In this document: one piece after another, positions 1-21,900 of the stretch
How the letters are laid out: the number at the start of each line of letters is the position of its first letter
Position numbering within the stretch: the stretch's first letter is position 1
DNA from: a virus
Length of the DNA stretch: 48,922 nucleotides
Direction: 5' to 3' (one strand)
Virus record (IMG/VR): IMGVR_UViG_3300020171_000008
Span: 1 to 48,922 of that record
The notes under the pieces: model-generated
Database searches by the model: none
What the model was told of the DNA's origin: nothing
What the model saw: only the letters and a program-made list of their open reading frames with translations
Program-made: the position numbers and the translations under genes

Positions 1-127
1 GGATGGATCAGAACCATGACGGGCAGTTCTTTGACGAGAAGGAGAAATGCATTATCTGGCTTTGTCTTGCGCCCGTAGCCTATATGCGAACCTTTCCCGA
101 CGTGGACGGCGGCAGATGGGTCATGGA
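1..127. repeat. Terminal direct repeat (circular overlap), left copy
   Basis: The first 127 bases are identical to 48796-48922. The portal reading frame continues in phase across the overlap, which is what a circular or circularly permuted genome gives when assembled as a linear contig. An exact overlap of 127 looks like an assembly k-mer length rather than a biological terminal repeat (inference). Confidence 0.95.
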
Positions 128-2372: not shown

Positions 2373-2522
2373 ATGGAATTGATATGGATTAGTTTTATTT
2401 TAATTATTGTTTCGATGTTCTGTCTGTATAAATCGTGCAAATACGGAAAAGAAGCGGAACGTCTATTGGTAGAATTAGATAAAAAGATGAAACAATTAGA
2501 GGCAATGAATACGAGTAAGTAA
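2373..2522 (+). CDS. Small single-pass membrane protein (49 aa)
   Basis: A strong ribosome site (ATGGAGGGGGT) precedes the ATG. Residues 2-19 (LIWISFILIIVSMFCLYK) form one hydrophobic segment followed by a charged helix (KEAERLLVELDKKMKQLEA), so an N-terminal anchor with a cytoplasmic tail is likely. Role unknown. The stop sits at the 5' edge of the first copy of the leader-terminator element. Confidence 0.6.
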   Translation: MELIWISFILIIVSMFCLYKSCKYGKEAERLLVELDKKMKQLEAMNTSK

Positions 2523-2580
2523 CACATAGGCTATCGGAAACACCGGGGCGCGAATCACGAAAGTGACGCGCCTTTTTTAT
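2521..2580 (+). terminator. Leader-terminator element, copy 1
   Basis: The leader CTATCGGAAACACCGGGGC contains a small hairpin CGG-AAACA-CCG. It is followed by stem GGCGCG/CGCGCC with an inner stem TCAC-GAAA-GTGA and six Ts. Two further copies lie at 4870 and 21835 with the same leader but different, fully complementary stem bases. It lies 57 bases upstream of the scaffold gene, so it ends the mini-gene transcript and may set scaffold/capsid dosage. Confidence 0.85.
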
Positions 2581-2636
2581 TTGCGATTCAGCCAGTTACC
2601 CCTGACTGCATCGACAACAAAACTAAGGAGAAAATT

Positions 2637-3482
2637 ATGGCAGACGAGAAAATCAATACGGAAGCAGCAGGGGCCGTACCTGCGGATAAGGGGCAAGCGT
2701 CAGATTCCCCTACTGACAAGAAAACGGATGCAGGTTCGGATTCATCCCCCGAAGTGGTGTTGGATGACAAAGGCAAACCGTTGCCTTGGTCGGATCAACC
2801 AAAGTGGAAGCAGGCACGAACAGCCGAAAGGAAACTCGAAGCCCTCCTGAAAGCCAATGACCTTACAGATCCAGACGACCTTCTGGACCTCGTTCAAAGA
2901 GGTAAAACGGTCAAAGGGAAATTGGCAGACCTGAACCAATTGGACGTCCTCATAGCGAAGTCTGAGAAATTAGACAAATATGAGGCGTACTGGCAGGAGC
3001 AGGAGGAACTTAAAAGACGGAACACAGAGTCAGAATCGGAGACGATAAGGAGACTTGAAACGCAACTAAAAGGCCGTGACGCGGCTGAGGCCCGCAAGAG
3101 GGCGGAAACGGAACATGTCGAGAATACGAAAAGGGCTATATCCTCTTATGAAAATGAAGTGGAAAACCTGATTCGTGAGGTCGAAGTGCCAAAAGAACAA
3201 CGTGCTTTCTTGGCAGAGTTCTTCGGCGTGGGGAATCCCTGCAACGACATCGACATTACCGACCGGAAGGCGATCAAGAAACTTATCTCTGATGGGATTA
3301 AGAAAAAAGAGGCATACGATCAGGCGGTCATCAAGCAATACCTTAATTCAAAACAAGGTATTCCTAAGGTGACTTCAACCGCCGGAGCGAGTGCAGAAGG
3401 AACTAAACAAAAAATGACTATGAAAGACGCCCGTTCGATATTCCGGGAGAATATGCAGAAATGGGCGGACTCAGGAGGATAA
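2637..3482 (+). CDS. Putative capsid scaffolding protein
   Basis: 281 residues, highly charged and mostly helical. An acidic, low-complexity N-terminus (to about residue 50) includes SSPEVVLDDKGKPLPWSDQP; residues about 60-175 are coiled-coil-like (KLEALLKAN, QEELKRRNTESES, RLETQLKGRD); the C-terminus is basic (KMTMKDARSIFRENMQKW), as expected for the shell-binding helix-turn-helix of scaffolds. Position immediately before the major capsid gene, with a 4-base gap, is the main argument. AAGGAG lies before the ATG. No protease motif seen, so a scaffold rather than a protease fusion. Confidence 0.8.
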   Translation: MADEKINTEAAGAVPADKGQASDSPTDKKTDAGSDSSPEVVLDDKGKPLPWSDQPKWKQARTAERKLEALLKANDLTDPDDLLDLVQRGKTVKGKLADLNQLDVLIAKSEKLDKYEAYWQEQEELKRRNTESESETIRRLETQLKGRDAAEARKRAETEHVENTKRAISSYENEVENLIREVEVPKEQRAFLAEFFGVGNPCNDIDITDRKAIKKLISDGIKKKEAYDQAVIKQYLNSKQGIPKVTSTAGASAEGTKQKMTMKDARSIFRENMQKWADSGG

Positions 3483-3486
3483 TTAA

Positions 3487-4812
3487 ATGACTACGGCTTA
3501 TGCTGCAAGGGACTCAATCGTTGAGAACCTTAAAAATGTGTACGGGGTGGGGATGACCGACCAATTCCCCGAAGAGAACATAACCTATAACCTTTTTGAG
3601 ACTACCGACAAGAAGCCGGGTGGCAATGGGTATATTGGCGCCGTGCGGTATGCCCGCGCCCAGAGTGGCGGCGGTAGAGCCGAATCGGCGAAACTGCCCG
3701 ATCCGTTGACCGGCGTTAAGGACCAGTACACCGTCACCCCGAAGTACATATACGAATCGCTTCGTATCACCGGACCGGCAATCGAGTCGGCAAAGGGTAA
3801 TGTGATGGCGTTCGTAGATGGTCTTGCCGACGAAATCGACGACCATTATAAAAGCATCCTGGCGAATCTGAACAGGATGAGTCATTGGGACGGGTACGGT
3901 CAACTTGGTCGTCTGACCGCTGCGGCGACCGTTCCTGCGGGTACGTGGGCCGGTACTTTCGATAACGACATCGGCGTCATGTACATGATCGAAGGGCAGT
4001 TGGTTGACTTCTACGCTTCTGCCGGCGATACCGTTCCGGGTTCATCCGCCTCGGCTATTTTCGGTCAGAGGATTTCAACCATCACGCCTTCAACGAATGT
4101 CGTTATTTTCGAGACTAATGCCACGACCTACAAGTCGAACCATCCTACGTTGTCCAGTCTGACTAACGGGGTGGCGGTCACGATGGGCAACGGTTGCATC
4201 GCTGTTCACATGGGCGCGAGAGACCTGGCGTGGACAAGTTCGGATACGCAGTATGAAATCGTCGGGTTGGATGGAATCTTCGACGACGGAACCAACAAGG
4301 CCGTCTTTGAGGGTATCACATGTTCAACCAATCCGAAGTGGAAGGCCAACATCCTTTCCAACTCTTCGGTCGATCGTGAACTAAGTCTCGATCTGATGCT
4401 TACGGCTTGCGATCTTTCTCGCAAAAGAGGCGGGGCGAAACCGGATTCGATTATCATGGGGCTTGGTCAGCGGCGGAAATACGCTAACCTGTTCCTGAGT
4501 GATGTACGGTTTGAACCCGAAGTGCTGAAAGGCGGGTACCGAACCCTCACGTTTGCTGCGGGTGATGGAAGCATCAAAATCATCATCGATCCGATGTGCC
4601 AGCCGGGCCGGCAGTATTTCTTCCCCAAAGGTGTGATTCAGAAATATGAATTAACACCACTTGGGTGGGGGAACCTTGACGGTTCGCAGTTGCACCAGAG
4701 AAGCGGTTATGACGAGTGGGATGCTTATTTGAGAATCTACACCGAGCTCGGGTGCGATCAGAGAAACAGTCTAACCCTCTTGAAGGATTTAGTAGAACCT
4801 TCATATGATTAG
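3487..4812 (+). CDS. Major capsid protein
   Basis: 441 residues, the main shell subunit. Position after the scaffold, with a strong AGGAGGATAATTAA ribosome site, and the composition (Gly/Thr/Ala rich, few Cys) support the call. An N-terminal helix (AYAARDSIVENLKNVYG) is followed by DKKPGGNGYIGAVRYARAQS and SLRITGPAIESAKGN, reminiscent of the N-arm and spine helix of HK97-fold capsids in podovirus-like phages; the C-terminal LHQRSGYDEWDAYLRIYTE belongs to the P-domain end of such proteins. A decayed echo of that C-terminal coding sequence lies just downstream. Fold assignment is by context and resemblance. Confidence 0.85.
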   Translation: MTTAYAARDSIVENLKNVYGVGMTDQFPEENITYNLFETTDKKPGGNGYIGAVRYARAQSGGGRAESAKLPDPLTGVKDQYTVTPKYIYESLRITGPAIESAKGNVMAFVDGLADEIDDHYKSILANLNRMSHWDGYGQLGRLTAAATVPAGTWAGTFDNDIGVMYMIEGQLVDFYASAGDTVPGSSASAIFGQRISTITPSTNVVIFETNATTYKSNHPTLSSLTNGVAVTMGNGCIAVHMGARDLAWTSSDTQYEIVGLDGIFDDGTNKAVFEGITCSTNPKWKANILSNSSVDRELSLDLMLTACDLSRKRGGAKPDSIIMGLGQRRKYANLFLSDVRFEPEVLKGGYRTLTFAAGDGSIKIIIDPMCQPGRQYFFPKGVIQKYELTPLGWGNLDGSQLHQRSGYDEWDAYLRIYTELGCDQRNSLTLLKDLVEPSYD

Positions 4813-4827
4813 TAAGTTAGGGATTCT

Positions 4828-4860
4828 TTGAATCCGGGTTATGATGAATGGGATGCGTAA
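4828..4860 (+). pseudogene. Relic of a capsid-gene 3' end
   Basis: Bases 4837-4857 encode GYDEWDA, then TAA. The intact capsid gene encodes GYDEWDA at 4705-4725; the two 21-base stretches differ at only three third-codon positions. The relic has no start or ribosome site. It is most simply a leftover from a past recombination or insertion at the capsid gene 3' end, like the endolysin relic at 26632, but chance similarity of so short a stretch cannot be excluded. Confidence 0.5.
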
Positions 4861-4869
4861 ATAGGTAAC

Positions 4870-4936
4870 TAACAACATAACGCTATCGAGCAAGTCGGGG
4901 CGGGTTTCACCAGAGATGGTGGCCCGCCCTTTTTAT
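4870..4936 (+). terminator. Leader-terminator element, copy 2
   Basis: ACATAACGCTATCG followed by a small hairpin CGA-GCAAG-TCG, then stem GGGCGGG/CCCGCCC with inner CACC/GGTG and a T-run. The leader matches copies 1 and 3, while both stems carry compensating base changes. It lies between the capsid gene and the beta-helix protein gene, 45 bases before the latter's start. Confidence 0.85.
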
Positions 4937-4980
4937 TAACCAGTATCCCTTATGGGGGCAAACTAAAAAGGAGAAAGAAA

Positions 4981-5994
4981 ATGATTAAAAAAAGAAACCT
5001 CGATCCATCGTTAGTTCAGTGGATTATGACTCAAACGGGGTTAGGGCCGGGGATCGGTGAGTTGTTTTATGTTGCCCCTGCTGCCAGTTCGACCTCGCAG
5101 TTTCGGACGCAGTTACAGAGCATGGGTGTTAAGGATGAAAGCATCTACACATCCCCGACAACGGCCTATGCGGACATGGTAGCGGGGCGTAATGATGTTA
5201 TGCTTGTTGCCCCAGGTGCTTATGACCTCGATGCAGAATTGACTTGGAGTAAGGCATGGACGCATCTGCTCGGCATGGGCGGACCAAATATGTATGGGGA
5301 TTACTCAGAACCCAATGTGTTTATCTATTCGGATGGTGTCGGGGTTGCTTCGGTTATCACCGTTACCGGACAGAACTCCATTTTTGTGGGTGCCGGTGTT
5401 GGTAATTTCGGAGCCAATGCCGCTTGTCTTACCGCTGCAACAATCAACATCTACGGAACCACATGGCGAGATTGCTCTTTCATGGGGACTACCGTGACTG
5501 AGCAATGTGCAGTAGCCGCCGCCGCATCTCTCTATATTGGAGCGGCAGGAATGTATCCTCTCATTGAGAACTGCCAGATCGGTCAGAATGTGTGGGGAAC
5601 CAGAACAACGTCCCAGAGTGGCGTGTTGAGTTTTTCAGGAACCGGTGGAAGGCCTAATGGCGGTGTCATAAGAAAATCAAGAATCGTCAGTACCGGGGAT
5701 GATACGGCGTGTTTCTTAGTCCGTATCCCTGCGACGACTTCTTCAGGACGTGGTTGGTTGTTTGATGATTGTTCGTTTGAACATTTTGCAAGCGCGGCTG
5801 ACGGAACCCAATTAGCGGCGGCATTTTACACCGTGACGGGTGGAACGCAGAAACAAACCATGCTTCTTCATAACTGCGGTCTATTCGGTGTTGATGAGTG
5901 GGAAACCGGAGACTATGGTGTTGTGTGGGGAGATATGTCCACGTCAAGTACCAGCGGTGGTATCGGCAGAGAACCGAGTGCGGCAATTAGTTAA
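4981..5994 (+). CDS. Beta-helix structural protein (head fibre/decoration candidate)
   Basis: 337 residues, Gly/Thr/Ser/Ala-rich. From about residue 60 the sequence repeats short turns of the kind ...IYTSPTTAYADMVAGRND, VMLVAPGAYDLDAELTW, SIFVGAGVGNFGANAACL, INIYGTTWRDCSFMG, YPLIENCQIGQNVWG, GVIRKSRIVSTGD, GWLFDDCSFEHFASA: the 20-25-residue coils of a right-handed parallel beta-helix (pectin-lyase-like fold). The N-terminal 30 residues are helical and may be the capsid anchor. Its place right after the capsid gene suggests a head-associated decoration or fibre, possibly glycan-binding. Good ribosome site (AAAAAGGAGAAAGAAA). Confidence 0.6.
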   Translation: MIKKRNLDPSLVQWIMTQTGLGPGIGELFYVAPAASSTSQFRTQLQSMGVKDESIYTSPTTAYADMVAGRNDVMLVAPGAYDLDAELTWSKAWTHLLGMGGPNMYGDYSEPNVFIYSDGVGVASVITVTGQNSIFVGAGVGNFGANAACLTAATINIYGTTWRDCSFMGTTVTEQCAVAAAASLYIGAAGMYPLIENCQIGQNVWGTRTTSQSGVLSFSGTGGRPNGGVIRKSRIVSTGDDTACFLVRIPATTSSGRGWLFDDCSFEHFASAADGTQLAAAFYTVTGGTQKQTMLLHNCGLFGVDEWETGDYGVVWGDMSTSSTSGGIGREPSAAIS

Positions 5995-5995
5995 T

Positions 5996-6184
5996 ATGGA
6001 AACCGTTAAAACACGTGGCCCAAGAAACAAACCCCCACTTGTTGTGGGAACTGGCAAGGATATGCAGTTTAATCCGAAGATGTGGGAGAAATGGAATGCT
6101 GATGCCTGCCGTGCCGATTCATGGAAACACGGCAGGGTCAGTAAGATATATCGGGAAAAGTATGACCAGATAAGATGGCATTAA
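5996..6184 (+). CDS. Small hypothetical protein (62 aa)
   Basis: Starts at ATG 5996, one base after the beta-helix stop, so probably coupled. Basic N-terminus (METVKTRGPRNKPPLVVGTG) followed by a Trp-rich helix (MWEKWNADACRADSWKHGRV). No recognised family. A longer frame in the same phase exists upstream but overlaps the beta-helix gene deeply and is not believed. Confidence 0.5.
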   Translation: METVKTRGPRNKPPLVVGTGKDMQFNPKMWEKWNADACRADSWKHGRVSKIYREKYDQIRWH

Positions 6185-6196
6185 GGAGGAACGAAA

Positions 6197-6424
6197 ATGC
6201 CAGAGAACATGGTGTCTCCGTCCTGTACGGCATGTGGTGGTGATGGTGTAAATGGTGTCGAACTTTGTACTGAATGTATGGGGAGTGGGACACTTCCTCT
6301 TCGGGGGATGAGTCTTTATGTGAGAAATAATAATATTAATATTCTCGACAAGATTCAGGAGGTAAAAACCAAGGTAAACCAGATGCAGGCGGATATTAAT
6401 TACATCAAGGCCAAGGTCGGTTAA
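6197..6424 (+). CDS. Zinc-ribbon / coiled-coil small protein (75 aa)
   Basis: Strong ribosome site AAGGAGGAACGAAA before the ATG. Residues 10-31 carry two DnaJ-type knuckles, CTACGGDG and CTECMGSG, which would bind one zinc. The C-terminal half (NINILDKIQEVKTKVNQMQ) is a heptad-patterned coiled coil. DnaJ-central-domain-like modules of this size occur as small phage proteins next to head genes; partner unknown. Confidence 0.65.
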   Translation: MPENMVSPSCTACGGDGVNGVELCTECMGSGTLPLRGMSLYVRNNNINILDKIQEVKTKVNQMQADINYIKAKVG

Positions 6425-6428
6425 ACCC

Positions 6429-6491
6429 AGGGCGGATGGCCGCCCTACATTGCGGGTCCGGGATTTCTCCCTCCGCCCGGATCCGCCTTTT
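6429..6491 (+). terminator. Structured terminator with alternative pairings
   Basis: GGGCGG-ATGG-CCGCCC forms one hairpin and GGTCCGGG pairs with CCCGGATCC in a second. Alternatively GGCGGAT (6432-6438) pairs with ATCCGCC (6481-6487) and is followed at once by TTTT. Either fold can terminate, and the two are mutually exclusive, as in attenuators. It separates the zinc-ribbon gene from the next small gene. Confidence 0.5.
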
Positions 6492-6501
6492 GAAAGAGAA
6501 T

Positions 6502-6690
6502 ATGAAGAGAAGGAAATATGGTGTGATTGGCGGTTTTATGGGGTGCGACAGCAGTGGGATGCTCATTCATCCCAACGGCAAAAGACTATTCAGGGTTCCC
6601 GTTAAAATGGGACGTGTTATCAGATACATACAACATCAAATTGTTTATATGATCTGTTACTTAAAAGGGATTGGATATGCCAGAAGTTGA
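6502..6690 (+). CDS. Small hypothetical protein (62 aa)
   Basis: ATG 6502 is preferred because an in-phase ATG at 6436 lies inside the hairpin structure. The product begins MKRRKYGVIGGFMGCDSSG and ends with a hydrophobic/basic region (RYIQHQIVYMICYLKGI) that could touch membrane. It overlaps the next gene by 14 bases. The ribosome site (AAAGAGAAT) is weak and no family is recognised, so it may not be expressed. Confidence 0.35.
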   Translation: MKRRKYGVIGGFMGCDSSGMLIHPNGKRLFRVPVKMGRVIRYIQHQIVYMICYLKGIGYARS

Positions 6691-7111
6691 TCGGAGCTTC
6701 TTACGCGATCTCAAGAATCTTGACTCGCGCTTAGGATGCAAATTCAACGGGGAACGATTTGTCGTTACATACGCCAGAGCATACGGCGAGCCGGTAAACC
6801 TTCTATGCGTCGAGGGCGACAGAGGAGGATTCCGGCAACCGGATAAACGGGATTTAGCTGTTCTTTGGAAAGGGGATAAATCGAGAGGCGACAACCCCGA
6901 AGTGCGTCTTAAAAAGGCCGCTTACGTCTCTGAACTCATACGTCGGGAACGGGCACGGAAAATGACAGGTGAAATCCGCGACATGACCAAGGACGGGAAG
7001 AATCAACTTCGGAAGACGTTTGAACAGGCGACGAATCAGAGTAAGGCCAATTCGACCTTCAGGCGGATCGCTCCAAAACCGGGGAAGAATACAGTCCGGG
7101 TGGTTCCATGA
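6677..7111 (+). CDS. Hypothetical protein, first of the modification cassette (144 aa)
   Basis: Start ATG 6677 with AAGGGA seven bases upstream. The N-terminal half has alternating strands and helices (LGCKFNGERFVVTYARAYG) and the C-terminal half is basic and helical (ELIRRERARKMTGEIRDMTK). Its last bases overlap the methyltransferase start (ATGA), so the two are probably translated together. Function not recognised; such proteins sit among phage structural genes. Confidence 0.6.
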   Translation: MPEVDRSFLRDLKNLDSRLGCKFNGERFVVTYARAYGEPVNLLCVEGDRGGFRQPDKRDLAVLWKGDKSRGDNPEVRLKKAAYVSELIRRERARKMTGEIRDMTKDGKNQLRKTFEQATNQSKANSTFRRIAPKPGKNTVRVVP

Positions 7112-7728
7112 CGGACTATTCGCAATTCGAGAAGCATATCGAAACGCTGAAAAAGTCCGTCTATACCGAACCACGCTGGCCGTATCACGAAAAAATGATG
7201 GATACCGTTTTTGGTAATTTCGTCAAGAATGGCTCTTTTCAAAATGTGTTGGATGTTGGATTCGGGACCGGGTACTCGCTGGACAAGTTCAGGGGATTGG
7301 GTATCAAGGCGACCGGGATCACGCTTGACCCGAAGGAACTTCAGACGGCAGCGTTCATCGGCCATGATGTGAAAATGATGGACATGAACTTTCTGGATTT
7401 CCCGGACAGTTCGTTCGATCTTGTATGGTGCCGGCATTCTCTTGAACACAGCATCATGCCGCTGATTGCCCTGATGGAATTTCGCCGGGTTATGACACCG
7501 GAAGGGCGGTTATACGTTGAAGTGCCGAGCGATAACGTGGTCCACATGGAAAACGCGAATCATTATTCGCTTTTCTCCGATGCGGCATGGCAAGCGATGT
7601 TTCGCAAAACCGGATTCTTTTTGATGTTCCGGGGACAGTTGGCGGTTACTATAAAGGCTAAGGAGGAACGGATCAACGGTTATTATGACATTTATTGGCA
7701 ATACTGGCTACTGAAAGAGGGAAATTGA
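7108..7728 (+). CDS. Class I SAM-dependent methyltransferase
   Basis: 206 residues. Motif I NVLDVGFGTG at residues 46-55 is the glycine-rich SAM-binding loop. The GITLDPKE segment ends in an acidic position typical of motif II, and FDLVWCRHSLEHSIMPL (motif IV region) plus RRVMTPEGRLYVEVPS (motif V/VI) complete a Methyltransf_11-type fold. This type usually acts on small molecules or sugars rather than DNA. It is fused by overlap to upstream and downstream genes (ATGA; TTGA with the glycosyltransferase), so the three probably act together, perhaps capping a glycan on a virion protein or on the host surface. Substrate is inference. Confidence 0.8.
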   Translation: MTDYSQFEKHIETLKKSVYTEPRWPYHEKMMDTVFGNFVKNGSFQNVLDVGFGTGYSLDKFRGLGIKATGITLDPKELQTAAFIGHDVKMMDMNFLDFPDSSFDLVWCRHSLEHSIMPLIALMEFRRVMTPEGRLYVEVPSDNVVHMENANHYSLFSDAAWQAMFRKTGFFLMFRGQLAVTIKAKEERINGYYDIYWQYWLLKEGN

Positions 7729-9488
7729 AAAAAGCAATCTTAACCGTCGTAAATGGCGAAAAATATGAAGAAATATGGAAGAGAAGCGAACCCTTCTTTG
7801 TCCGTTACGCCGAAAAATGCGATGCCGATTTGATCGTTATGAAAAATGCGGAAGGATTAAACTTTCCCTCTCCCCATTGGATCAAGTTCGGGATTTACGA
7901 CCTTTTGAAGAAGGAGTTTGACCGGATAGCGTTCATAGATGCGGATGTGATTATCCGGGATGATTGTCCTTCGCTCTTTGACATAGTGCCGGAAGATAAG
8001 TTTGGAATCTTCAACGAGGGAGAGTTTACGCCCCGCGCCATGTGCATTTATGAAGTTCGCAAGGTGTTCAGTGTGGACATAAAGGATTGGAACGGGGTAG
8101 ATTACTACAACTCCGGCGTATTCGTCTGTTCTAAAGAACATCGTTTTATCTTCAAGATCACAGAGGAAATCAAACCGCTCCGCAACGCCTTCGGCGAACA
8201 GACCTATCTGAACATGAAGATCATGTGCAACCTGCAGGTTAAGGTGTTCAATCTTCCGTTCAAGTTCAACAGGATGAGCATCATGGACCGGATCACAGGG
8301 ATGACGCGCCTTGATTCTTACATTATCCATTATGCCGGCGATGCCGATAAATTACTTCTCAAAATGGATAGGGACATCGAAAGATGGAAACAGGATACGC
8401 CGGAATACAAATACAAACGGAAAATCTTCATCTGGTCATTAGGGGGTCTGGGAGATTGCATCGCCACGGAACCCGTCATTCGATACATCAAACGGAAGAT
8501 TTACCCGAAGGACGATGTTTATGTGATGTCCAAAGAGGATTATCTATACGAACACATCGAGGACATTCATCTTTCCAAAACGTACCCGGAAGGGGAGTTC
8601 GATGCTGTCCATGAAATGAACACCCATCAGACCCCGTGGGGCGAATTTGGGAAACTCTGCCCGTTCATTTATATCCATTCCCTTGATTGGGCGTCGATGG
8701 CGACGATAGGCCGGATGATCCCCGATAAGGATAAACAGATTTTCCTTCATTATGCCCCCCAGGACCTGCAAGAATCATTTGCGTTGAGCGATCACCTTGA
8801 CGACCTGGTGCTGGTTCATCCCGGTGTCGGATGGGTGACAAAGACGTTCCCCATAGAATATTGGCAGAAAATCATAGACGACCTTGCAGAATTGGGTTTC
8901 CGGGTCGGCATTATCGGAAAACACGTCAACGATCAGCATAGTGTCCTGGACGTGAAATGTCCGTCAAATGGCGTGGATTTCCGGGACAAACTGAGCGTTC
9001 GGGGATTGATTGCATTGATAGCAAAGGCAAGGATTTTGGTTACGAATGATTCAGCCCCTCTATTCATTGCAGGTGCGTTCAAGAATTATATCGTTTTGAT
9101 TCCAACCTGCAAACATCCTGACCTGATTCTGCCATACCGTAACGGGGGTGACAAATATTGGCGTTCAGCGGCCCTATATAAAAAGATGATCGAAGATGAC
9201 GATTATCTGGCAACGACTGATATTAAAGGGTGGTCGATGAAGGACTTCCCTAAAGGTCATACAATAGATGAATATCTACCGGAGATTGAGGATGTAGTCG
9301 ATAAGGTTATCGACTTTAACGATCAGTATGAAAACACATACTGCTCGATTAAAACAAAGGAGAAAGAAGAAAATGGGAAAACAAGATTTTTGGAGTTCGA
9401 GGGAAGCGGATTGGACGTTATGGAATCCCACAAACGAAGCATTCGACATGAAGTATGCGGGGAGGTCGTTCACGCTTGCGACGGGTGA
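7725..9488 (+). CDS. Two-domain glycosyltransferase (GT8-like + GT9-like)
   Basis: 587 residues from TTG 7725, which overlaps the methyltransferase stop as TTGA with GAAAGAGGG upstream. Residues 1-225: GT-A-type domain with the metal-binding DAD at 72-74 (RIAFIDADVII) and YYNSGVFVCS, as in GT8 enzymes. Residues 232-560: GT-B-type domain like heptosyltransferases (GT9), with GGLGDCIATEPVIRYI, VHPGVGWVTKTFPIEYW and NDSAPLFIAGAF (about 438-449). The last 38 residues overlap the next gene by 116 bases and do not look conserved, so the original stop may have been lost by frameshift. Expected to transfer sugars from nucleotide donors; target could be virion protein or host envelope. Confidence 0.8.
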   Translation: MKKAILTVVNGEKYEEIWKRSEPFFVRYAEKCDADLIVMKNAEGLNFPSPHWIKFGIYDLLKKEFDRIAFIDADVIIRDDCPSLFDIVPEDKFGIFNEGEFTPRAMCIYEVRKVFSVDIKDWNGVDYYNSGVFVCSKEHRFIFKITEEIKPLRNAFGEQTYLNMKIMCNLQVKVFNLPFKFNRMSIMDRITGMTRLDSYIIHYAGDADKLLLKMDRDIERWKQDTPEYKYKRKIFIWSLGGLGDCIATEPVIRYIKRKIYPKDDVYVMSKEDYLYEHIEDIHLSKTYPEGEFDAVHEMNTHQTPWGEFGKLCPFIYIHSLDWASMATIGRMIPDKDKQIFLHYAPQDLQESFALSDHLDDLVLVHPGVGWVTKTFPIEYWQKIIDDLAELGFRVGIIGKHVNDQHSVLDVKCPSNGVDFRDKLSVRGLIALIAKARILVTNDSAPLFIAGAFKNYIVLIPTCKHPDLILPYRNGGDKYWRSAALYKKMIEDDDYLATTDIKGWSMKDFPKGHTIDEYLPEIEDVVDKVIDFNDQYENTYCSIKTKEKEENGKTRFLEFEGSGLDVMESHKRSIRHEVCGEVVHACDG

Positions 9489-9966
9489 GAAACTCGATCA
9501 TGTAAATGAAGCCTGCAAGAATCACTTGATTACCGAATTTGGCAGGCGGGGTCTGGTTGCTCTTGGGTACAGTGATGCCGGTCACGAGGACGAAATAGGC
9601 GAAGCCGCAAGAAAAACGAATTTGGAGTTCAAAAAAAGGCAGGTGCGGATTTACAATGAAACCAACGAACAGAGGAAACTTTCAAGGCTTGGTTATCAGT
9701 CGCCGGGCAAAGTAATACGGCAATATGCCGTTGAGTTGGGGATAGAATTACTTGAACCATACACAATGAAGGATGAAGAAAAGGCGGCTATTGCCAAATC
9801 AACGATTGAAAATGAAGTTCTGAAACTGAAGTTGGCCGCACAGGAAACCGCGATGGCCGAAATGAAAACCATGATGGAACAACTTTTGGCGCAGAAGAAG
9901 GAACCGGAACCGCCGAAATCAGGAGTAAGGGTGCGGAACAGCGACGGTAAATGGGTAAAGGAGTAG
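9373..9966 (+). CDS. Hypothetical structural-region protein (197 aa)
   Basis: ATG 9373 is chosen over the upstream in-phase ATG at 9328 because AAAGGAGAAAG lies just before it. The N-terminus (DFWSSREADWTLWNPTN, then MKYAGRSFTLATGEK) is beta-rich; residues 130-190 form a long coiled coil (ENEVLKLKLAAQETAMAEM) and the tail is basic (VRVRNSDGKWVKE). Sits between the glycosyltransferase and the adaptor gene, so a virion-associated role is likely but unproven. Confidence 0.65.
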   Translation: MGKQDFWSSREADWTLWNPTNEAFDMKYAGRSFTLATGEKLDHVNEACKNHLITEFGRRGLVALGYSDAGHEDEIGEAARKTNLEFKKRQVRIYNETNEQRKLSRLGYQSPGKVIRQYAVELGIELLEPYTMKDEEKAAIAKSTIENEVLKLKLAAQETAMAEMKTMMEQLLAQKKEPEPPKSGVRVRNSDGKWVKE

Positions 9967-9969
9967 ATA

Positions 9970-10812: not shown

Positions 10813-10817
10813 TAATA

Positions 10818-13694: not shown

Positions 13695-14350
13695 ACGAAA
13701 AGGGATGGAAACCATATATGTATCCTGGACTTTCATACAATCAATTAAGAGACGTTGTTCCTGCGAGGAAACGTGAATGGGACGGTTATATCATCCCGCA
13801 GTTAGAGATGAAGAAACCCAATCAGTATCCAGAAAGTGGGAAAAAGGTAAAGCTAAAAACGGGATCAGGTTATCCGGAGATGATCTATACATATGATCTT
13901 CAATGCATGAAATCGCCTTATCCAACCTCACGCCACGAAGCATCTACCTACGTAAGACCTTCTTTTGATGCCCCTGATCTCATTGAATGGGAACCGGAGG
14001 AAATAACGGAGACTGAAGTGCCAACGAAAATCGAAGGAAGATATACGGTATCTTATAGTCTTAACGGAAGTGATTGGGTTGATGTGTTTTCATATATCCC
14101 TGATTCTTCATACGATAAATATAATGTAGATTCTGTTGAACACCATGTATCTTTAGAACAACCAACTAATGCTAATGTTTATTTTGATGATTTGACTTTT
14201 TCGGCACCCAGTTCTGCGTCTATTTATAGTGATACTTTCACGGGCAATAATAATGACCCACCGGATTCATCCAAGTGGACACTTCCAACAGATTCTATGG
14301 CGATTGAAAACAATACGTTAAGTTATTATGATGGTGGAGGACCAGGCTAA
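13691..14350 (+). CDS. Structural protein with C-terminal lectin-like domain, N-part
   Basis: 219 residues, starting ATGA with the tail-hub stop. Residues 1-110 are Tyr/Pro-rich (PYMYPGLSYNQLRDVVPARK, PQLEMKKPNQYPESGK). From about 115 the sequence becomes lectin-like and its DNA AT-rich (GRYTVSYSLNGSDWVDVFSY, VYFDDLTFSAPSS), followed by SDTFTGNNNDPPDSSKW, the start of a LamG/DUF1349-type jelly roll. The frame ends in GGGPG-stop exactly where the next frame begins (TAATG), and the next product reads like the rest of the same domain. Likely a tail-associated receptor-binding or stabilising protein. Confidence 0.6.
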   Translation: MNEKGWKPYMYPGLSYNQLRDVVPARKREWDGYIIPQLEMKKPNQYPESGKKVKLKTGSGYPEMIYTYDLQCMKSPYPTSRHEASTYVRPSFDAPDLIEWEPEEITETEVPTKIEGRYTVSYSLNGSDWVDVFSYIPDSSYDKYNVDSVEHHVSLEQPTNANVYFDDLTFSAPSSASIYSDTFTGNNNDPPDSSKWTLPTDSMAIENNTLSYYDGGGPG

Positions 14351-14646
14351 TGCCCGGAGCGACAAGTAAGATTAGTCAAAGTGTTACTAATAAACAAATT
14401 TCCTTCACCGTTAAGACACATCTACCTTTGAACGGGGGAAACGCAACGGTACATCTTAACAGAGACATTTCGTCTATTCCGCCAGAGTATCAGACTGGAT
14501 GGATAGATTGGTGCCAAGTAGAACACCGATCTTATTCTGGATCGGGGGCGCGGTCGTTGGTTGTCAGCATGGATGGTTTGGTAAAGCAAACCGTAAATTT
14601 ATCATCGGGTAACGAAGATGTTTGGATAAAAGTAAAATACACATAG
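14350..14646 (+). CDS. Lectin-like domain remainder (98 aa)
   Basis: Starts within TAATG of the previous gene, one frame over. Sequence TSKISQSVTNKQISFTVKTH, then WIDWCQVEHRSYSGSGARSL and SMDGLVKQTVNL, is all-beta and completes the jelly roll begun upstream (n-terminal strands with SKW and IENNTLSYY). Two readings fit: stop-start reinitiation producing two chains, or a frameshift that split one gene. No ribosome site beyond the coupled stop is seen. Confidence 0.5.
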   Translation: MPGATSKISQSVTNKQISFTVKTHLPLNGGNATVHLNRDISSIPPEYQTGWIDWCQVEHRSYSGSGARSLVVSMDGLVKQTVNLSSGNEDVWIKVKYT

Positions 14647-14655
14647 GAGTCTCAA

Positions 14656-15156
14656 ATGCCTAAGATAAACTGGAGTAAATACAGAACCGAATACGCCAAT
14701 AGCAAGGTTGGAATGAGTATCGAGGAACAAGAGGCACTTGACGCAGAACTCCGGGCAAAGGGCGGGGCCACAAGTCAGGCCGGATTGAGTACGGAGAAAT
14801 CAGGACCGTCAGGGGGAGACTTCCGTACCGACGAGTATATGTATAATGCGGCACAGGCAACGGTCCCGGTCAGTGCCGGTTCGTCTAAAATGGCCGGAGG
14901 TCTTGCGGGACTTAGGGATGCAAGATCAAAACAATTTCTGGCCGTATATGGTCCTGGTGGACCGCTTAACAGAATGTCAAAGACTGACTCAAAGACGAGG
15001 GTTGCATTACAATCAGCATTACAACTGGATGATTCCCTTGATACCCTTGGGAAATTTGTTGGCCCTTATGGGAATACCCCGCACTATTATGATGCGTTGG
15101 TGGCAGCAAAAGGTCTTCGTAACGCGAAACGATCAGCAAGAAGGACAGGAGGATAA
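14656..15156 (+). CDS. Probable internal virion protein (166 aa)
   Basis: ATG with TAGGAGTCTCAA upstream. Gly/Ala/Ser-rich (LRAKGGATSQAGLSTEKSG, AQATVPVSAGSSKMAGGLAG) with a basic tail (KGLRNAKRSARRTGG). It is the first of four consecutive genes whose composition and position match internal or ejection proteins of short-tailed phages. No named family recognised. Confidence 0.6.
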   Translation: MPKINWSKYRTEYANSKVGMSIEEQEALDAELRAKGGATSQAGLSTEKSGPSGGDFRTDEYMYNAAQATVPVSAGSSKMAGGLAGLRDARSKQFLAVYGPGGPLNRMSKTDSKTRVALQSALQLDDSLDTLGKFVGPYGNTPHYYDALVAAKGLRNAKRSARRTGG

Positions 15157-15158
15157 AA

Positions 15159-15794
15159 ATGGCAACACTACCCACTTATACGGCCCCTACTTATAAAGAA
15201 CTTGGGACATATTCAGCTCCATCGTGGGATGAAGCAACAGTCGATGCCCTTACGCAGAAACGCGCTGCGCCGGGACTTCGGGCCGCTCGGCAGCAGATTA
15301 ACCGTGCATCGGGGGTGAGTTATGAAAATCCGAATGTCAAACGGCAAACCTTGAGAGACGCATTGTCCAGTTATGGCAATACCGTTGAAAGCACCCTTTC
15401 GGAGGCCAACGAAGCGGCGACAAGCGAATACGGGAAGAAATATGGCTATGCTGTTTCAAACGCACAGGCCAAATACACCAGCGAAGCAAACGCCGCGAGC
15501 GCTTACAATACACTCGCTCAAAATACGGCACAAACACAATATACGGGTGCATTGACCGGGTACGGAACCAAAGTCGGGAAAGAAACCGCTGCCACCGCTG
15601 CTGCCACAGCCGCCGGTGTAGCCACAACTGCTTACGGGAGACAACAGACCGCCCTTGAGAACGCATACGAACTATGGAAGAAAAAGTATCTGTGGACCGA
15701 GGAACAAGAATCGGGAGTGTCGCCATGGAGTCCGGGTACAACGCCGTGGAATTCCAGTAAAGAATATCCATACAAGGGCAGTACCGTAAGATAG
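15159..15794 (+). CDS. Alanine-rich internal virion protein (211 aa)
   Basis: AGGACAGGAGGATAAAA before the ATG. Residues 60-165 are a long Ala/Thr/Tyr-rich helical stretch (SEANEAATSEYGKKYG, SEANAASAYNTLAQNTAQTQ, ETAATAAATAAGVATTAYG) of the type found in ejected proteins such as T7 gp14. Pro/Trp-rich C-terminus (SPWSPGTTPWNSS). Confidence 0.6.
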   Translation: MATLPTYTAPTYKELGTYSAPSWDEATVDALTQKRAAPGLRAARQQINRASGVSYENPNVKRQTLRDALSSYGNTVESTLSEANEAATSEYGKKYGYAVSNAQAKYTSEANAASAYNTLAQNTAQTQYTGALTGYGTKVGKETAATAAATAAGVATTAYGRQQTALENAYELWKKKYLWTEEQESGVSPWSPGTTPWNSSKEYPYKGSTVR

Positions 15795-15806
15795 AAGGAG
15801 ATAACG

Positions 15807-17126
15807 ATGTCATTCGATGAATATGGAAACCAGTACGACGACGAGGGAGTTCTCCTGTTGCCTCCTGACCTCCAAGAGATATATGACCGTGGGGGATTCA
15901 GTCCTGGCGAAGCAGAAGCACTTGCGAGAGCTTATAGGGGTAGTTCCCCAACGCAGATTCCTACGTCTGAACGAGTCAAGGATGTAACCTATGTCCCCCC
16001 GGAACCGGTAGGGATTCCCTTTGTCCCGCGAGAACGTCCCGCAGGACCGTCATTTAAGTTTGGAAGGGAAGAATATAATACTCCCCTAATCGCGGGTTAT
16101 GGTAGGCGTATGGCCCTAATAAAACCCGAAGCGGGGCGTGCCGGTGCGACAAATGATTACGGTCAACCCGTATCAGAAGAATATCTAAAGGATATGGAAG
16201 ATACGATGGCCGCTTTTTATAGGGGGGACATATCTGAAGAACAACTGAAGGTAAAAGGGGGGATCCCGGCTAAGCCAACCGATCAGCAACTTTCGATCAC
16301 GGAACAAAAATTGAGGAACCGCCAGGATACATTCGACAAAATGAAAGAGACAGGGTTCCCCATTCCTAATCCCCAATCAGCACGTGAAGAAGCGGAATCA
16401 GCAATACAGAGAAGCTATAATGAAGGTCTTCAGACTTCTGATATAGTTCTAAGAAAGCCCAAAGAAGCAGCGCAAATCAATGCACATGCTCGCATTGCCG
16501 GACAATCGGCATTTCAACATGAACAGACAAGGTACGATGCCCTTGTTAATCATATAGATAAGGACTTTAACGCAAGGTATGAAGCTGATTACAAAAAGGG
16601 CGAAGAGGAACGCAAGAACGCACGGGAACTGGCAGAAAAGCAGGCCGCCGACAAACTGAAACGGGAAGAACGGCAAGAGGATGCTTGGCAAATCGTAGGC
16701 GACCAAAAGGTAAACAAATATACTGGAGAGGTTAAAGATATTCCCGGATTGAAAAAACCATCAACCTCCGTTGACTTGAAACGTTTGTCTGACATGGTGG
16801 CAATCGCTACGCGAGATAAGGGTGGTAATCTTGTCGAACCAAGTGTAAGTGATGTGGCCATAATATCAGACATGGCTGACAAGGCGGGATATGAATTCAA
16901 GAAACTAACAGGGAAATCGGCAGAATATGGACTTCCCGGAATAGATAAACCATTGTGGGGCGGGAAAGAAACGAGTGAATGGCGATTAGTGCCGAAGGGT
17001 AGCGAAAAGTCAACCGCTTCAGCAGTCTCCGAATCTGATCTTATAAAAGATTTGATGTCTCACGGCCACAGTAAATCGAGTGCCGAAGCCTATATCAAAA
17101 AGGCAAAAGTTAAAGGGAAATTATAA
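15807..17126 (+). CDS. Probable internal/ejection protein (439 aa)
   Basis: ATG after AGAAGGAGATAACG. The N-terminus is acidic and Pro-rich (EYGNQYDDEGVLLLPPDLQE, GGFSPGEAEALARAYRGSSP); the centre is a highly charged coiled coil (KGEEERKNARELAEKQAADK, then LKREERQEDAW); the C-terminus has a short helical motif with repeated SDLIKDLMSHGHSKSSAEAY. The last codon abuts the next ATG (TAAATG). Role inferred from position only. Confidence 0.6.
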   Translation: MSFDEYGNQYDDEGVLLLPPDLQEIYDRGGFSPGEAEALARAYRGSSPTQIPTSERVKDVTYVPPEPVGIPFVPRERPAGPSFKFGREEYNTPLIAGYGRRMALIKPEAGRAGATNDYGQPVSEEYLKDMEDTMAAFYRGDISEEQLKVKGGIPAKPTDQQLSITEQKLRNRQDTFDKMKETGFPIPNPQSAREEAESAIQRSYNEGLQTSDIVLRKPKEAAQINAHARIAGQSAFQHEQTRYDALVNHIDKDFNARYEADYKKGEEERKNARELAEKQAADKLKREERQEDAWQIVGDQKVNKYTGEVKDIPGLKKPSTSVDLKRLSDMVAIATRDKGGNLVEPSVSDVAIISDMADKAGYEFKKLTGKSAEYGLPGIDKPLWGGKETSEWRLVPKGSEKSTASAVSESDLIKDLMSHGHSKSSAEAYIKKAKVKGKL

Positions 17127-20100
17127 ATGGCATATGATCCTTTAGGAATAGATACCGAAGAATACGATCCGCTTGGCATCAATGAAGTGTCCGATACCAG
17201 ACCGCCGGTAGATTATTCTGTGTTCGATACGATAATGGAGGATGTCAAAAGGACCGCCGATGTGATCGGTATCCCTCTAACTATGCCCCTTGCGTGGGCG
17301 GCGAGTGGGGTTAGCGGTATTGTTGCGAAGGCATTAACCGGAGATGAAGAATTTGCTAATCAAATAAGGGAAGATGTAGGGAAACAGACTACATGGACGC
17401 CTAAGAGCGAAGTCGGTAAGGCAGCAATGGAATTTCTTGAACCCGGTTTTCGTGATGTATCTAAGTTAGCAAGGCAAATGACTGGTTCTGTTCGGATGCT
17501 TCCGGGTGTAAATGTTAATCCAGACGAACCTCTGTTTAGTGGGAAATTATACGAACATTCTCCCATAGAGGATATTGCGGCTTTAGGTGCGGAAGCATGG
17601 GCTTTCAAACAAGCGGGTAAAGTGGGGGGTGTATTAAAAAGCGAAGTAAAGAGTGGAGTTCGTGCTGCGAAAGAATCTCTGCGTAGCATGGAGGAGGGTT
17701 TGAAGTTTGGAGAGGAACCCGCACCGGAGATTGTGCGTCCAGAGTCGGGGGAGAGACCTGTCGAACCAATACAGAAACCCCGTGAGACGGTTGTCGCAAA
17801 GCAAGAATATGATCCGTTGAAGATTAACGAAGAAAAACCCGTAGCCGAGACTTTACCCGAAGCGAAGGTAGAGCCGCCCGTTGCTCCGATCGTTCAAACT
17901 GGGGCAACGTCGGGAGGCAAGCAGCCGTGGGAGATGGACAAGACATCCGTCAAGGCGGGTTTGTCCGACGAGTTAATTTATCGTCCAACATCGCTGTCAG
18001 ACGGGACCCTTGCCTTCCGTGATTTTGATAGCGGGAAAACTATCGTCGGGGATAAATATTTCGAGTTAGACCCCGTTGGGCGTAAGTCTCTGTTGATTCA
18101 CGAAGTAGGACACGACATTTCAAAGGCTATTTTGGCAGATAAGACGCAACCATGGGTTGACCTTATGGAACCCCTACGGGTTCAAGACGGTACGCCGCGA
18201 AGCGTCCGTTCACAATGGAAAAACCCGGTCGGGGGTTCAACGAAACCCGAAGAAATTCTTGCTGATATTTATGGGGATATCAAAGAAAACGGGATGCCGA
18301 ACTTCGCGGAAGGGTGGAGTAAAGAGACTGCTGAAAAACTCGGCCCTGTTTATGAGCGAGTAGCAAAGGAAATGGAGGTTAAATCCCCCCCTGGTCCTCG
18401 TCCGGGTAGCGAGCCATCCCCCCCGGAGATCGTTGAACTTGGGGCAACGTCGGGCGTTTTCTACCATGCCAAAACGAAAGGTGAGTTTACTGGCGGAAGA
18501 CCGTCAGTAGATATTGGCAGTGACGCCGATATTATGGGAAGAGGGTTTTATGTTTCAAAGGATTCTGAATATGCGGCGCGTTACGGAACCCCGGAACCGT
18601 ACAATATCGAAGGGAATTTTGCCAATACGAAGCAATGGACGGACACCTTAAAAAAGCACGAAAATAAACCAATAGCAGAGCAAAGGAGTCTGGCGCGGGA
18701 AGAATTGCAGGCACAAGGATATGACGGTGTGATGCAAGAAGGCGGAAATGGTGTCATCTGGAATCAAGGTGTTTTGGATAAACCTGGGGCACCGGCGGAA
18801 GGCAAACCGGAAGGAGCAACCGGAATCAAAAACGCTCAGACTTTGGCCGAACGTGAAGCAAGAGGATTGTCTGAGGTTGAGGTTGAGACGAGGCGATCTA
18901 ATCTGGTTGCCTTTGATGAGGGGAAGCGGCGTATTGAATCCGGGGAAGTTGATCCACGATTATTGGCCGAAGAACTTTCTAAGAAACCGCGTCCATTAAC
19001 ACCCGAAGAAACCGCCATGTTGACCATCGACCGGCAAAGGATCAAAACCGATCATAAAGCCGCGATGGATGCCGTTGAAAAAGCAAGGGATAGCGGAGAT
19101 ACAATCGCAGAAGCCGAGGCGCGGGTTAAACTGTCCGAAGTGGAAGAGGTTTACAATACGAACGACATTGCTTCACGACTTACGGGGTATGAACAAGGTG
19201 CCGGTTTACAGGCCCGGAAGATGATGGTTGATGAGGATATGTCCCTTGCGGCTATGTTGCAAAAACAGCGGGTGGAAAGTGGTAAACCAGTAACCCCGGA
19301 AATGAGGGCAAAGTTTGAGGAACTTAGTAAACGATATGAAGAAGTAAATGCGAAATTAAAAACCCTTGAAGAATCTAAGGCCCAAAGAGAAGCCGATATA
19401 ACGGTCAAGAGAATACAAAATGAGGTTGCAAAGGAACAACGGCAAACCAAACGGACGTATGCCAAAGAGGAACTCTCGACAGAATTTAGTGGATTGGTCA
19501 AGGAACTTAATTCAGTCCTCGGTGGTCAGTTAAATGTTGGCCTTGATCCTGCGGCTGTTGTCGTTCTCGGCAAGATGGCAAAGAACAGGGTTAAATCCGG
19601 CGTGATAACGATTGATGGTATCGTTGATGAGGTCTATTCTGCCGTAAAGGAAATAGGATTTGAAATCAGCAAGAGGGACATCAGGGATGCAATATCTGGC
19701 TATGGAATTACTTCGCAGATGAGTAAAGAAGCGATTGCTGTTCAACTGAGGGAACTTAAACGGCAAATGCGATTGATTTCAGCGTTTGAGGATGCAAAGG
19801 CGGGGCAGGTTCCGCTCAGGAGTGGGCTGCAACGTGACCTTCCGAGTGATACGGTTAGGGAACTGGGGCGGAAGGTTCAACAGGCCATGCGTGAAAGCGG
19901 GGTTGATAGTACCAAAGTAAGATCACCAGAGGAACAATGGAAGACATCTATTGATGCCGTTAAGACACGGCTGAATAACAGTATCGCGGATATTACCAAA
20001 GAGATAGAATCGGGGGAACGACTTCCAAAAAGCAAGGGGATCACTTATGATGCCGAAGCGAAGGCTTTGAGAGAACGTCGGGATGCCCTTGCGACTTTGC

Positions 20101-21833
20101 GAGATGCGTTGGTGGAAGAACCGAAAGAATTTACCATAGAAGAACCAGGAACTATTCCTGTTCAGAAGACCCGTCAACTGACGCAAGAACAGAGAATTAA
20201 CGCGGCTATAAGGGCTGCTGAGAAAGCAACTGGCCGGTATTCAGAAATGGCTGCAAAGGGCAATTTATTCCCCGAAAAGAAAGTAAGCACGATTCTTGAA
20301 ACGCCAGAACTGATAGAGGCAAGAAACAGAAGAACGGAGATGAAGGAGTATCTTGACGAACTTCGGGAAATTGCCAATCCTAAAAGAACCCCTGAAGAGA
20401 TTGCACTTAAATCATTTAAGACCAGAACTACGAACCGGATCACGGAACTTGAACAAAAATTGGCGAATAAAGATTTTACAAAACAGGAAAAACGCCAGAC
20501 GGCCCTTGACCCCGAAGCTCTGGCCCTCAAATTCCAACTGGACAAGGTAACCCGTTCTTACCATGAGGCCATGACGAAAGATCGGTTGGCAAATCGCAGT
20601 ACCTTGCAAAAGATCGGTGGCGGTATCGGAGAGGCGATAAACCTTTCACGGGCGATTAAAACCAGTTTCGACTTGTCGGCGGTTCTCCGCCAGGGTGCCT
20701 TCATTGTCTTTGGTCATCCAATCAGGGGCGCTAAGTCTATTCCGGCCATGTTCAAAGCATTGATGTCAGAAAAGGGTCAATTTGCGGTTGATTTGGAAAT
20801 TAGGAATAGGCCAAACTATCGCCTTTATGAACAAGGGAAACTATATTTAGCGGAACACGGGCAGAAACTTTCCCAAATGGAAGAAGTGTATATGTCCCGG
20901 TGGGCCGAGAAAATTCCCGGTGTTGCGGCTTCGCAACGGGCGTATACGGCATTCTTGAATAAACTTCGGGCGGATTCGTTTGATACGATGTGGCAAAACC
21001 TTTCCGTTAAAGGGAAACCGACACCACAAGAACTAAATGCGATAGCTAATTATGTTAACGTGGCTACCGGACGCGGGAACTTAGGGGCCAAGGAAAATGC
21101 GCTTGTAGGGTTAAATACTGCGTTCTTTGCCCCGCGTTATGTTGCAAGTCGTTTTCAATTACTTGCCGGTCAGCCACTATATCGTGGATCGGCGGCCACA
21201 AGGACCATGATTGCGGGGGAATATGCAAGATTTCTGACGGGACTTGGAGTTGTATATTCGTTAGGTGCGGCGGCGGGTGCCGATATTGAAATTGATCCAC
21301 GATCATCGGACTTCGGTAAAATCAAATTCGGTAATGTCCGCGTTGACCCTATGGCCGGTATCTCACAATCAACCGTTTTAGTCGCAAGATTGTTATCAGG
21401 TGAAACCAAAACATCCACGGGGAATATTGTCCCGATCCGGGGTGATAACGTACCCTATGGAAGCGGAAATTCGGCAGACGTTATCGCAAGATTCCTACGG
21501 TCAAAATTGAGTCCCGTTGTTGGAACGGGTGTGGATATTGCCGCCGGGAAAGACATTGTGGGGCAAAGGGTAACAGCAGAGGCATTGCCGGAGAAACTAT
21601 TGGCTCCTCTTGCGTTTAACGATATTTACCAGACCATGAAAGAACAGGGTGTTCCTGCGGCGGCGGCATTAGGCATACTTTCGATGTTTGGAATGGGATT
21701 GCAAACGTATAATTCGCAGCAAAGAAATTCAGACACAATATTTGATACTTTCCGGCAAGATGTTATGGGAGAACCGCCACAAAGTATGGAAAGAGGAGTA
21801 AGGGCCGCCCGACAGAGAATGAGGGCAAGATAA
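17127..21833 (+). CDS. Giant multidomain virion/ejection protein (1568 aa)
   Basis: 1568 residues, the largest gene. The N-terminus repeats YDPLGI twice (residues 3-8, 13-18) and YDPLKI near 230. Around residues 295-335 is a zinc-metalloprotease-like segment LLIHEVGHDISKAI with H325, E326, H329. After a GATSG linker, residues about 440-550 resemble an ADP-ribosyltransferase/polyvalent-protein domain (VFYHAKTKGEF, GRGFYVSKDSEYAARYG, LQAQGYDGVMQEGG). A long charged coiled-coil region (about 600-1150) leads to a C-terminal domain with AIKTSFDLSAVLRQGAFIV and NALVGLNTAFFAPRYVASRF, typical of large polyvalent proteins, with hydrophobic helices near the end. Likely ejected with the DNA; activities untested. 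Confidence 0.7.
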   Translation: MAYDPLGIDTEEYDPLGINEVSDTRPPVDYSVFDTIMEDVKRTADVIGIPLTMPLAWAASGVSGIVAKALTGDEEFANQIREDVGKQTTWTPKSEVGKAAMEFLEPGFRDVSKLARQMTGSVRMLPGVNVNPDEPLFSGKLYEHSPIEDIAALGAEAWAFKQAGKVGGVLKSEVKSGVRAAKESLRSMEEGLKFGEEPAPEIVRPESGERPVEPIQKPRETVVAKQEYDPLKINEEKPVAETLPEAKVEPPVAPIVQTGATSGGKQPWEMDKTSVKAGLSDELIYRPTSLSDGTLAFRDFDSGKTIVGDKYFELDPVGRKSLLIHEVGHDISKAILADKTQPWVDLMEPLRVQDGTPRSVRSQWKNPVGGSTKPEEILADIYGDIKENGMPNFAEGWSKETAEKLGPVYERVAKEMEVKSPPGPRPGSEPSPPEIVELGATSGVFYHAKTKGEFTGGRPSVDIGSDADIMGRGFYVSKDSEYAARYGTPEPYNIEGNFANTKQWTDTLKKHENKPIAEQRSLAREELQAQGYDGVMQEGGNGVIWNQGVLDKPGAPAEGKPEGATGIKNAQTLAEREARGLSEVEVETRRSNLVAFDEGKRRIESGEVDPRLLAEELSKKPRPLTPEETAMLTIDRQRIKTDHKAAMDAVEKARDSGDTIAEAEARVKLSEVEEVYNTNDIASRLTGYEQGAGLQARKMMVDEDMSLAAMLQKQRVESGKPVTPEMRAKFEELSKRYEEVNAKLKTLEESKAQREADITVKRIQNEVAKEQRQTKRTYAKEELSTEFSGLVKELNSVLGGQLNVGLDPAAVVVLGKMAKNRVKSGVITIDGIVDEVYSAVKEIGFEISKRDIRDAISGYGITSQMSKEAIAVQLRELKRQMRLISAFEDAKAGQVPLRSGLQRDLPSDTVRELGRKVQQAMRESGVDSTKVRSPEEQWKTSIDAVKTRLNNSIADITKEIESGERLPKSKGITYDAEAKALRERRDALATLRDALVEEPKEFTIEEPGTIPVQKTRQLTQEQRINAAIRAAEKATGRYSEMAAKGNLFPEKKVSTILETPELIEARNRRTEMKEYLDELREIANPKRTPEEIALKSFKTRTTNRITELEQKLANKDFTKQEKRQTALDPEALALKFQLDKVTRSYHEAMTKDRLANRSTLQKIGGGIGEAINLSRAIKTSFDLSAVLRQGAFIVFGHPIRGAKSIPAMFKALMSEKGQFAVDLEIRNRPNYRLYEQGKLYLAEHGQKLSQMEEVYMSRWAEKIPGVAASQRAYTAFLNKLRADSFDTMWQNLSVKGKPTPQELNAIANYVNVATGRGNLGAKENALVGLNTAFFAPRYVASRFQLLAGQPLYRGSAATRTMIAGEYARFLTGLGVVYSLGAAAGADIEIDPRSSDFGKIKFGNVRVDPMAGISQSTVLVARLLSGETKTSTGNIVPIRGDNVPYGSGNSADVIARFLRSKLSPVVGTGVDIAAGKDIVGQRVTAEALPEKLLAPLAFNDIYQTMKEQGVPAAAALGILSMFGMGLQTYNSQQRNSDTIFDTFRQDVMGEPPQSMERGVRAARQRMRAR

Positions 21834-21834
21834 A

Positions 21835-21900
21835 CCGTAACAACATAACGCTATCGGAAACACCGGGGCATCTTAGTCGAAAGACAGGATGCCCTTTTTA
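21835..21900 (+). terminator. Leader-terminator element, copy 3
   Basis: ACATAACGCTATCGGAAACA, then CCGGGGCATCTTAGTC-GAAA-GACAGGATGCCC and five Ts. The leader is nearly identical to copies 1 and 2; the stem here is GGGCATC/GATGCCC with inner GTC-GAAA-GAC. Separates the giant protein gene from the next structural gene, whose start is 58 bases further. Confidence 0.85.

Follow-up and report, generated by a model that had tools for sequence, protein, structure and literature searches.

A recurring leader, mini-hairpin and terminator RNA at the head-gene boundaries of phages with unrelated capsid proteins

In phage lambda, the boxB of nut is a small hairpin with a five-nucleotide, purine-rich loop that lies upstream of termination sites. 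Genes 11 and 12 of phage T7 are expressed only via read-through of the terminator T-phi (PMC5592923), and the put RNA of HK022, about 70 nt long and situated near the early promoters, suppresses terminators far downstream (PMC9378689). Here we describe three elements in a virus record of 48,922 bases (the window, that is, the whole stretch of DNA analyzed) that belong to an RNA family found in many uncultivated phages. No described element of this kind was found in the open-access literature. Rfam 15 gave no match at the gathering score and only chance-level matches at relaxed thresholds, and the first 25 kb of the window matched no sequenced phage at the DNA level.

Direct reading of the window confirmed the three leader-terminators reported in an earlier note, here called T1, T2, and T3, all on the plus strand. 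The element is about 60–70 nt long, and each copy comprises a leader ending in GCTA, a mini-hairpin, a G+C-rich two-part terminator stem, and a tract of five to seven U. The leader reads (CA)UAACGCUA, with the core GCUA. The mini-hairpin has four base pairs and a five-nucleotide purine-rich loop and abuts the terminator helix with no spacer, the terminator stem itself consisting of two helices, an outer one of about six pairs and an inner one, separated by an irregular middle. T1 starts directly 3' of the TAA of the upstream small ORF with the leader AACACATAGGCTA (2521..2533), followed by the mini-hairpin UCGG-AAACA-CCGG (2534..2546) and the intrinsic terminator (2547..2578; GGCGCG/CGCGCC, inner CAC-GAAA-GUG, then U6). 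T2 has the leader CAACATAACGCTA (4873..4885), the mini-hairpin UCGA-GCAAG-UCGG (4886..4898), whose last G can pair with the terminator 3' arm instead, and a terminator at 4898..4934 (GGGCGGG/CCCGCCC, an inner hairpin, then U5). The leader of T3 is again CAACATAACGCTA (21841..21853) and its mini-hairpin again UCGG-AAACA-CCGG (21854..21866), with the terminator at 21866..21899 (GGGCATC/GATGCCC, inner GUC-GAAA-GAC, then U5).

A G+C-rich hairpin followed at once by a U-tract, the hallmark of intrinsic termination, is present in all three window copies and in all accepted relatives, and the folding z-scores of the window copies are -3.5, -4.7, and -5.6. The pattern GCTATCG-N7-CGGGG occurs exactly three times in the window, against zero occurrences of the reversed pattern. 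Leader and small hairpin are absent from the other terminator-like sites of the window (e.g., minus strand 43358 and 40736), and the other terminators of carrier genomes likewise lack this module.

T1 lies downstream of a P22-like portal protein gene (3..1874, plus strand) and upstream of a putative scaffold gene (2637..3482, plus), so assigned from its position directly before the capsid gene and its conservation among relatives, and of the major capsid protein gene (3487..4812, plus; phrog_14242). Further plus-strand genes follow the capsid gene, including those after T2 (4981..5994) and T3 (21959..22630), neither of which has a recognizable family. That a copy precedes separately dosed virion genes, as the earlier note held for all three, is shown only for T1, with scaffold and major capsid protein behind it. 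Homologues of the gene after T2 follow the second copy in L124/L112, even though the capsid proteins of these phages are unrelated to that of the window. Two other features of this region were observed. A gene of the late region (7695-9488) encodes a protein with domains of glycosyltransferase families 8 and 9, which is unusual for a virion gene. Downstream of the capsid stop codon (4822-4860), a short stretch read in a different frame encodes GYDEWDA-stop, a peptide also present within the capsid protein (GYDEWDAY), with the same stretch in the same gap of L016 and a similar one in L020; it is possibly a remnant of a partial capsid-gene duplication.

Within the window, the covariation claimed by the earlier note is slight: the mini-hairpins of T1 and T3 are identical, and T2 differs by one compensated pair and its loop. 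Such single-genome covariation is weak evidence by itself, and main stems would differ in any set of terminators. The claim of full covariation is borne out across relatives. Pattern scans of IMG/VR and a survey of capsid-protein relatives yielded about 28 distinct copies, in which the mini-hairpin positions pair in 111 of 112 cells (99.1%; 75.7% in shuffles) and two-sided changes number 39, compared with 13 in shuffles. All four pairs vary on both sides, and slid structures pair at most 57%. The relatives also extend the small hairpin from the three pairs first proposed to four, the U or C before the stem pairing with the A or G after it. Loop base 4 is A in 26 of the 28 copies. The last base of the mini-hairpin has an alternative partner, the base after the terminator 3' arm, and these two positions covary (A-U in 9, G-C in 8, and G-U in 1 of 20), so that one nucleotide is common to both helices. 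When folded alone, 13 of the 28 mini-hairpins are predicted at 0 kcal/mol or above; the conservation of pairing despite this predicted instability suggests stacking or a bound partner.

Because most relatives were found via parts of the leader plus the U-tract, the constancy of GCTA and U-tract is in part a product of selection. Unbiased evidence comes from three sources. First, four phages found via their capsid protein rather than the leader (L015, L016, L019, and L023) share this leader and mini-hairpin, placed immediately upstream of the scaffold gene. Second, in a scan that did not require a U-tract, each match with a mini-hairpin also had a terminator, while the remaining matches had neither and were chance matches in coding sequence. 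Third, a last, looser scan left the three inner mini-hairpin pairs free and recovered eight new copies (L203=L206, L205, L208, L209, L213, L216, L217, and L219), which score 34.8–67.5 bits under the covariance model R1. Under the same model the training copies score 50–74 bits and L113 scores 47.6, the next best score in 863 kb being 17.8; generic terminators are not found at comparable scores. Most loose-pattern matches were discarded as lying in coding sequence and having no mini-hairpin.

Homologous phages keep leader and stem together or have neither, with the exception of L013, which has a terminator at the scaffold slot and no leader. Both conditions that the earlier note named as refuting its reading, stems kept without the leader in homologous phages and a model finding only generic terminators, thus came out in its favor. 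Neither leader nor terminator was found at this slot in the capsid relatives L011/L012, L014, L017, L018, L020, L021/L022, and L024. The element is dispensable, as several close capsid relatives have no terminator there. Together with the covarying mini-hairpin, its recurrence in phages with unrelated capsids and its specificity for head-gene boundaries support the proposal that the conserved leader makes it more than a simple terminator. The earlier interpretation as a whole is partly supported.

A second candidate structured RNA lies in the 5'UTR of the gene that follows the capsid gene, at 4941-4974 in the window and at L011:7060, L014:6341, L015:5931, L016:4947, L020:6464, L021:7270, and L126:6930 (minus strand). 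It consists of AGUAUC, a stem very variable in length and sequence, GG, and AACUA ahead of the ribosome-binding site, and it stays with the post-capsid gene even when a small gene intervenes (L011, L021). A small gene with paired CxxC motifs (MDTQQCIKCKEIKPLDMFYANK...), its own promoter-like sequence, and a product that is possibly endonuclease-like, directly follows the capsid gene in L011/L012, L017, and L021/L022, at the place of T2 in the window. Upstream of the scaffold gene, a conserved, apparently structured 5'UTR with UGCUCGUU..AAUGAUCC inside a changing outer stem is found in L013, L016, and L023, and another that is conserved and apparently structured, GGUCAGUCAG.AUUGAUUAACC, in L014, L015, L017, and L019; the latter is kept where the terminator element is missing (L014, L017). 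It is possible that these conserved 5'UTRs exert translational control of the scaffold.

In most phages the element separates portal-side genes from scaffold and capsid. It lies between terminase and portal in L128 and between the scaffold and the capsid unit in L124 and L133, and the window, L124/L112, and L126 have a copy after the capsid gene as well. The gene roles of relatives, beyond the tested capsid proteins and portals, were read from size and order. Nearly all copies are found at head-gene boundaries; a genome has up to three, each on the late strand at a head-gene boundary or late gene. The capsid proteins of carriers fall into at least four families (phrog_14242, phrog_212, phrog_371, and phrog_283). 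No link among these four groups was found by blastp, which indicates that the RNA travels or is kept independently of capsid lineage. Leader, covarying 4-bp mini-hairpin, and terminator are shown by these comparisons to be one unit that recurs with unrelated capsid lineages.

The element is phage-specific. A 47-kb contig of a Syntrophaceae MAG also contains the L010 sequence. One copy alone appears to be chromosomal; it does not adjoin phage head genes and comes from a Deltaproteobacteria MAG (L063). Hosts read from MAG contigs, which can be misbinned, are a lead and not a result. The L063 copy (5456-6228, minus strand) lies between an AbrB-like and a RelE-like gene, a toxin–antitoxin-like pair identified by eye only. 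Model searches gave real matches in only two of 395 genomes of the phylum of the Syntrophaceae MAG, namely the phage contig and L063, and no real copy in 842 genomes of three other phyla (398 + 296 + 148), where the one weak match (L221) has no U-tract. These model searches of about 1,240 genomes, together with a pattern search of 155 genomes of the class of the Syntrophaceae MAG, yielded nothing beyond the phage contig, L063, and generic hairpins, and a host chromosomal feature was rejected. Among cultivated or fully sequenced capsid relatives (Gammaproteobacteria, Bordetella, and others), no element was found in 16 regions; where such phages have a terminator at the slot at all, it is a plain one. 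Plain terminators at the slot occur before the scaffold gene in L171 and L162 and after the capsid gene in L176.

The CTA of the leader usually lies 7–22 nt past the upstream stop codon, and most of the space between that codon and the downstream ribosome-binding site is taken up by the element. A sigma70 promoter for the downstream gene would need some 40 nt or more between the U-tract and the start codon, and in 7 of 20 phage copies this distance is only 12–29 nt (46–74 nt in the rest). With the genes in one direction, these seven leave no room for a promoter, so the genes behind them would require read-through and the element would be a gate; the missing promoter space thereby favors the partial read-through control raised in the earlier note. 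No sigma70-like signal is enriched upstream of the element. The leader as a promoter was rejected on this ground and because no convincing leader without hairpins was found.

We infer, with a probability of about one half, that the element is a cis-acting intrinsic terminator with controlled read-through, in which the leader and mini-hairpin would serve as a recognition module. Judged from its anatomy, it would be a modular terminator flanking the head-gene block within the late operon of the phage, where polymerase would terminate at some rate and from which the downstream head genes would be reached by read-through. The mini-hairpin would sit at the mouth of the RNA exit channel once the terminator forms, and together with the unpaired leader it could act as a handle through which RNA polymerase, NusA, or a phage factor alters termination, read-through being set or raised when head proteins are needed. 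A conserved unpaired leader next to a compensated hairpin points to a partner, whether the stacked terminator helix, RNA polymerase, NusA, or a phage protein. No protein was common to all carriers and absent from non-carriers. The proteins encoded at 37821-38243, 44217-44675, and 45402-45860 occur in several carriers and are absent from two non-carriers; they are HNH endonucleases or a small HTH protein, are not universal, and were rejected as partner candidates.

The gate could be either set, through fixed leakiness, or opened, through antitermination. Unless read-through is regulated or processing of the transcript intervenes, a terminator ahead of the capsid gene is expected to reduce the product in greatest demand; its position before the most needed protein favors an opening gate or a processing step over a fixed reduction. 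More tentatively, the element may be a phage-specific, horizontally mobile RNA switch: leader plus mini-hairpin would signal antitermination or conditional termination in cis to a factor or to RNA polymerase itself, and unrelated phage lineages would use this signal as a timing gate for the capsid block.

Processing of read-through transcripts is an unlikely alternative, in which a host or phage endonuclease would cut in the leader or the two-part hairpin. The cut would leave the upstream mRNA with a protected 3' end and create a separate 5' end for the head-gene mRNA. Such processing would suit an intergenic gap mostly filled by the element, with the CTA usually 7–22 nt past the upstream stop codon, as well as the recurrent irregular middle between the two helices of the main hairpin and the separation of genes needed in different amounts. 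However, a textbook U-tract accompanies every mini-hairpin copy, even where the scan did not ask for one, and would be superfluous for a pure cleavage site, and no conserved cleavage signature was identified.

We regard as less probable again an ordinary leaky dosage terminator like T-phi after gene 10 of T7, its strength tuned by leader and mini-hairpin with no factor involved. T7 genes 11 and 12, expressed only by T-phi read-through (PMC5592923), are a precedent, and L171, L162, and L176 have plain terminators at the slot. These same plain terminators indicate that the slot works without leader or mini-hairpin, and tuning alone does not readily account for a leader kept across unrelated capsid lineages. 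Improbable above all is a 3'UTR-derived sRNA acting in trans on a host or phage target, with the leader as unpaired seed and the hairpins and U-tail as stable body: a sequence-conserved unpaired 5' part, structure-conserved stems, a U5-7 tail, and a length of about 60–70 nt are typical of Hfq-type sRNAs, but up to three copies per genome, all at late-strand head-gene boundaries or late genes, and a position conserved although the flanking genes are unrelated argue against it.

In sum, controlled read-through being the reading we prefer, the element appears to be a new phage RNA, either a switch or a processing tag, that would control transcription into the head genes. Phages need hundreds of capsid proteins per portal and make them from tightly packed operons, and a conserved RNA at the portal/capsid boundary of phages with unrelated capsids points to a common transcriptional checkpoint in virion assembly. 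The covariance model provides a searchable marker for the head modules of phages that have not been cultivated, among them apparently phages of anaerobic Desulfobacterota. Should the leader recruit a factor, the element would join N, Q, and put as a further antitermination system.

Leader attenuators, such as riboswitches and protein-binding leaders, resemble the element in having a conserved RNA directly before a terminator in the 5'UTR of the controlled gene. They differ in that no alternative antiterminator pairing was seen here beyond the one shared nucleotide, and no upstream promoter signal is enriched at the element. Lambda boxB is likewise a small hairpin with a five-nucleotide purine-rich loop, but its GNRNA is not kept in the 28 loops (AAACA, GCAAG, AACAA, and others), most of which begin with A, and no boxA-like sequence was noted at the element. 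T7 T-phi similarly places a terminator at the edge of a capsid gene and has downstream genes reached by read-through (PMC5592923), whereas it acts on the phage's own single-subunit polymerase and sits after the capsid gene; our element adds a sequence-conserved leader and a covarying mini-hairpin, with copies mostly before the scaffold gene. HK022 putRNA is also a short two-hairpin nascent phage RNA that acts in cis on terminator read-through (PMC9378689). Its two hairpins act on downstream terminators, whereas in our element the second hairpin, ending in a U-tract, is the terminator and the first is just 4 bp long. By analogy with HK022 put, the element may act through the nascent RNA.
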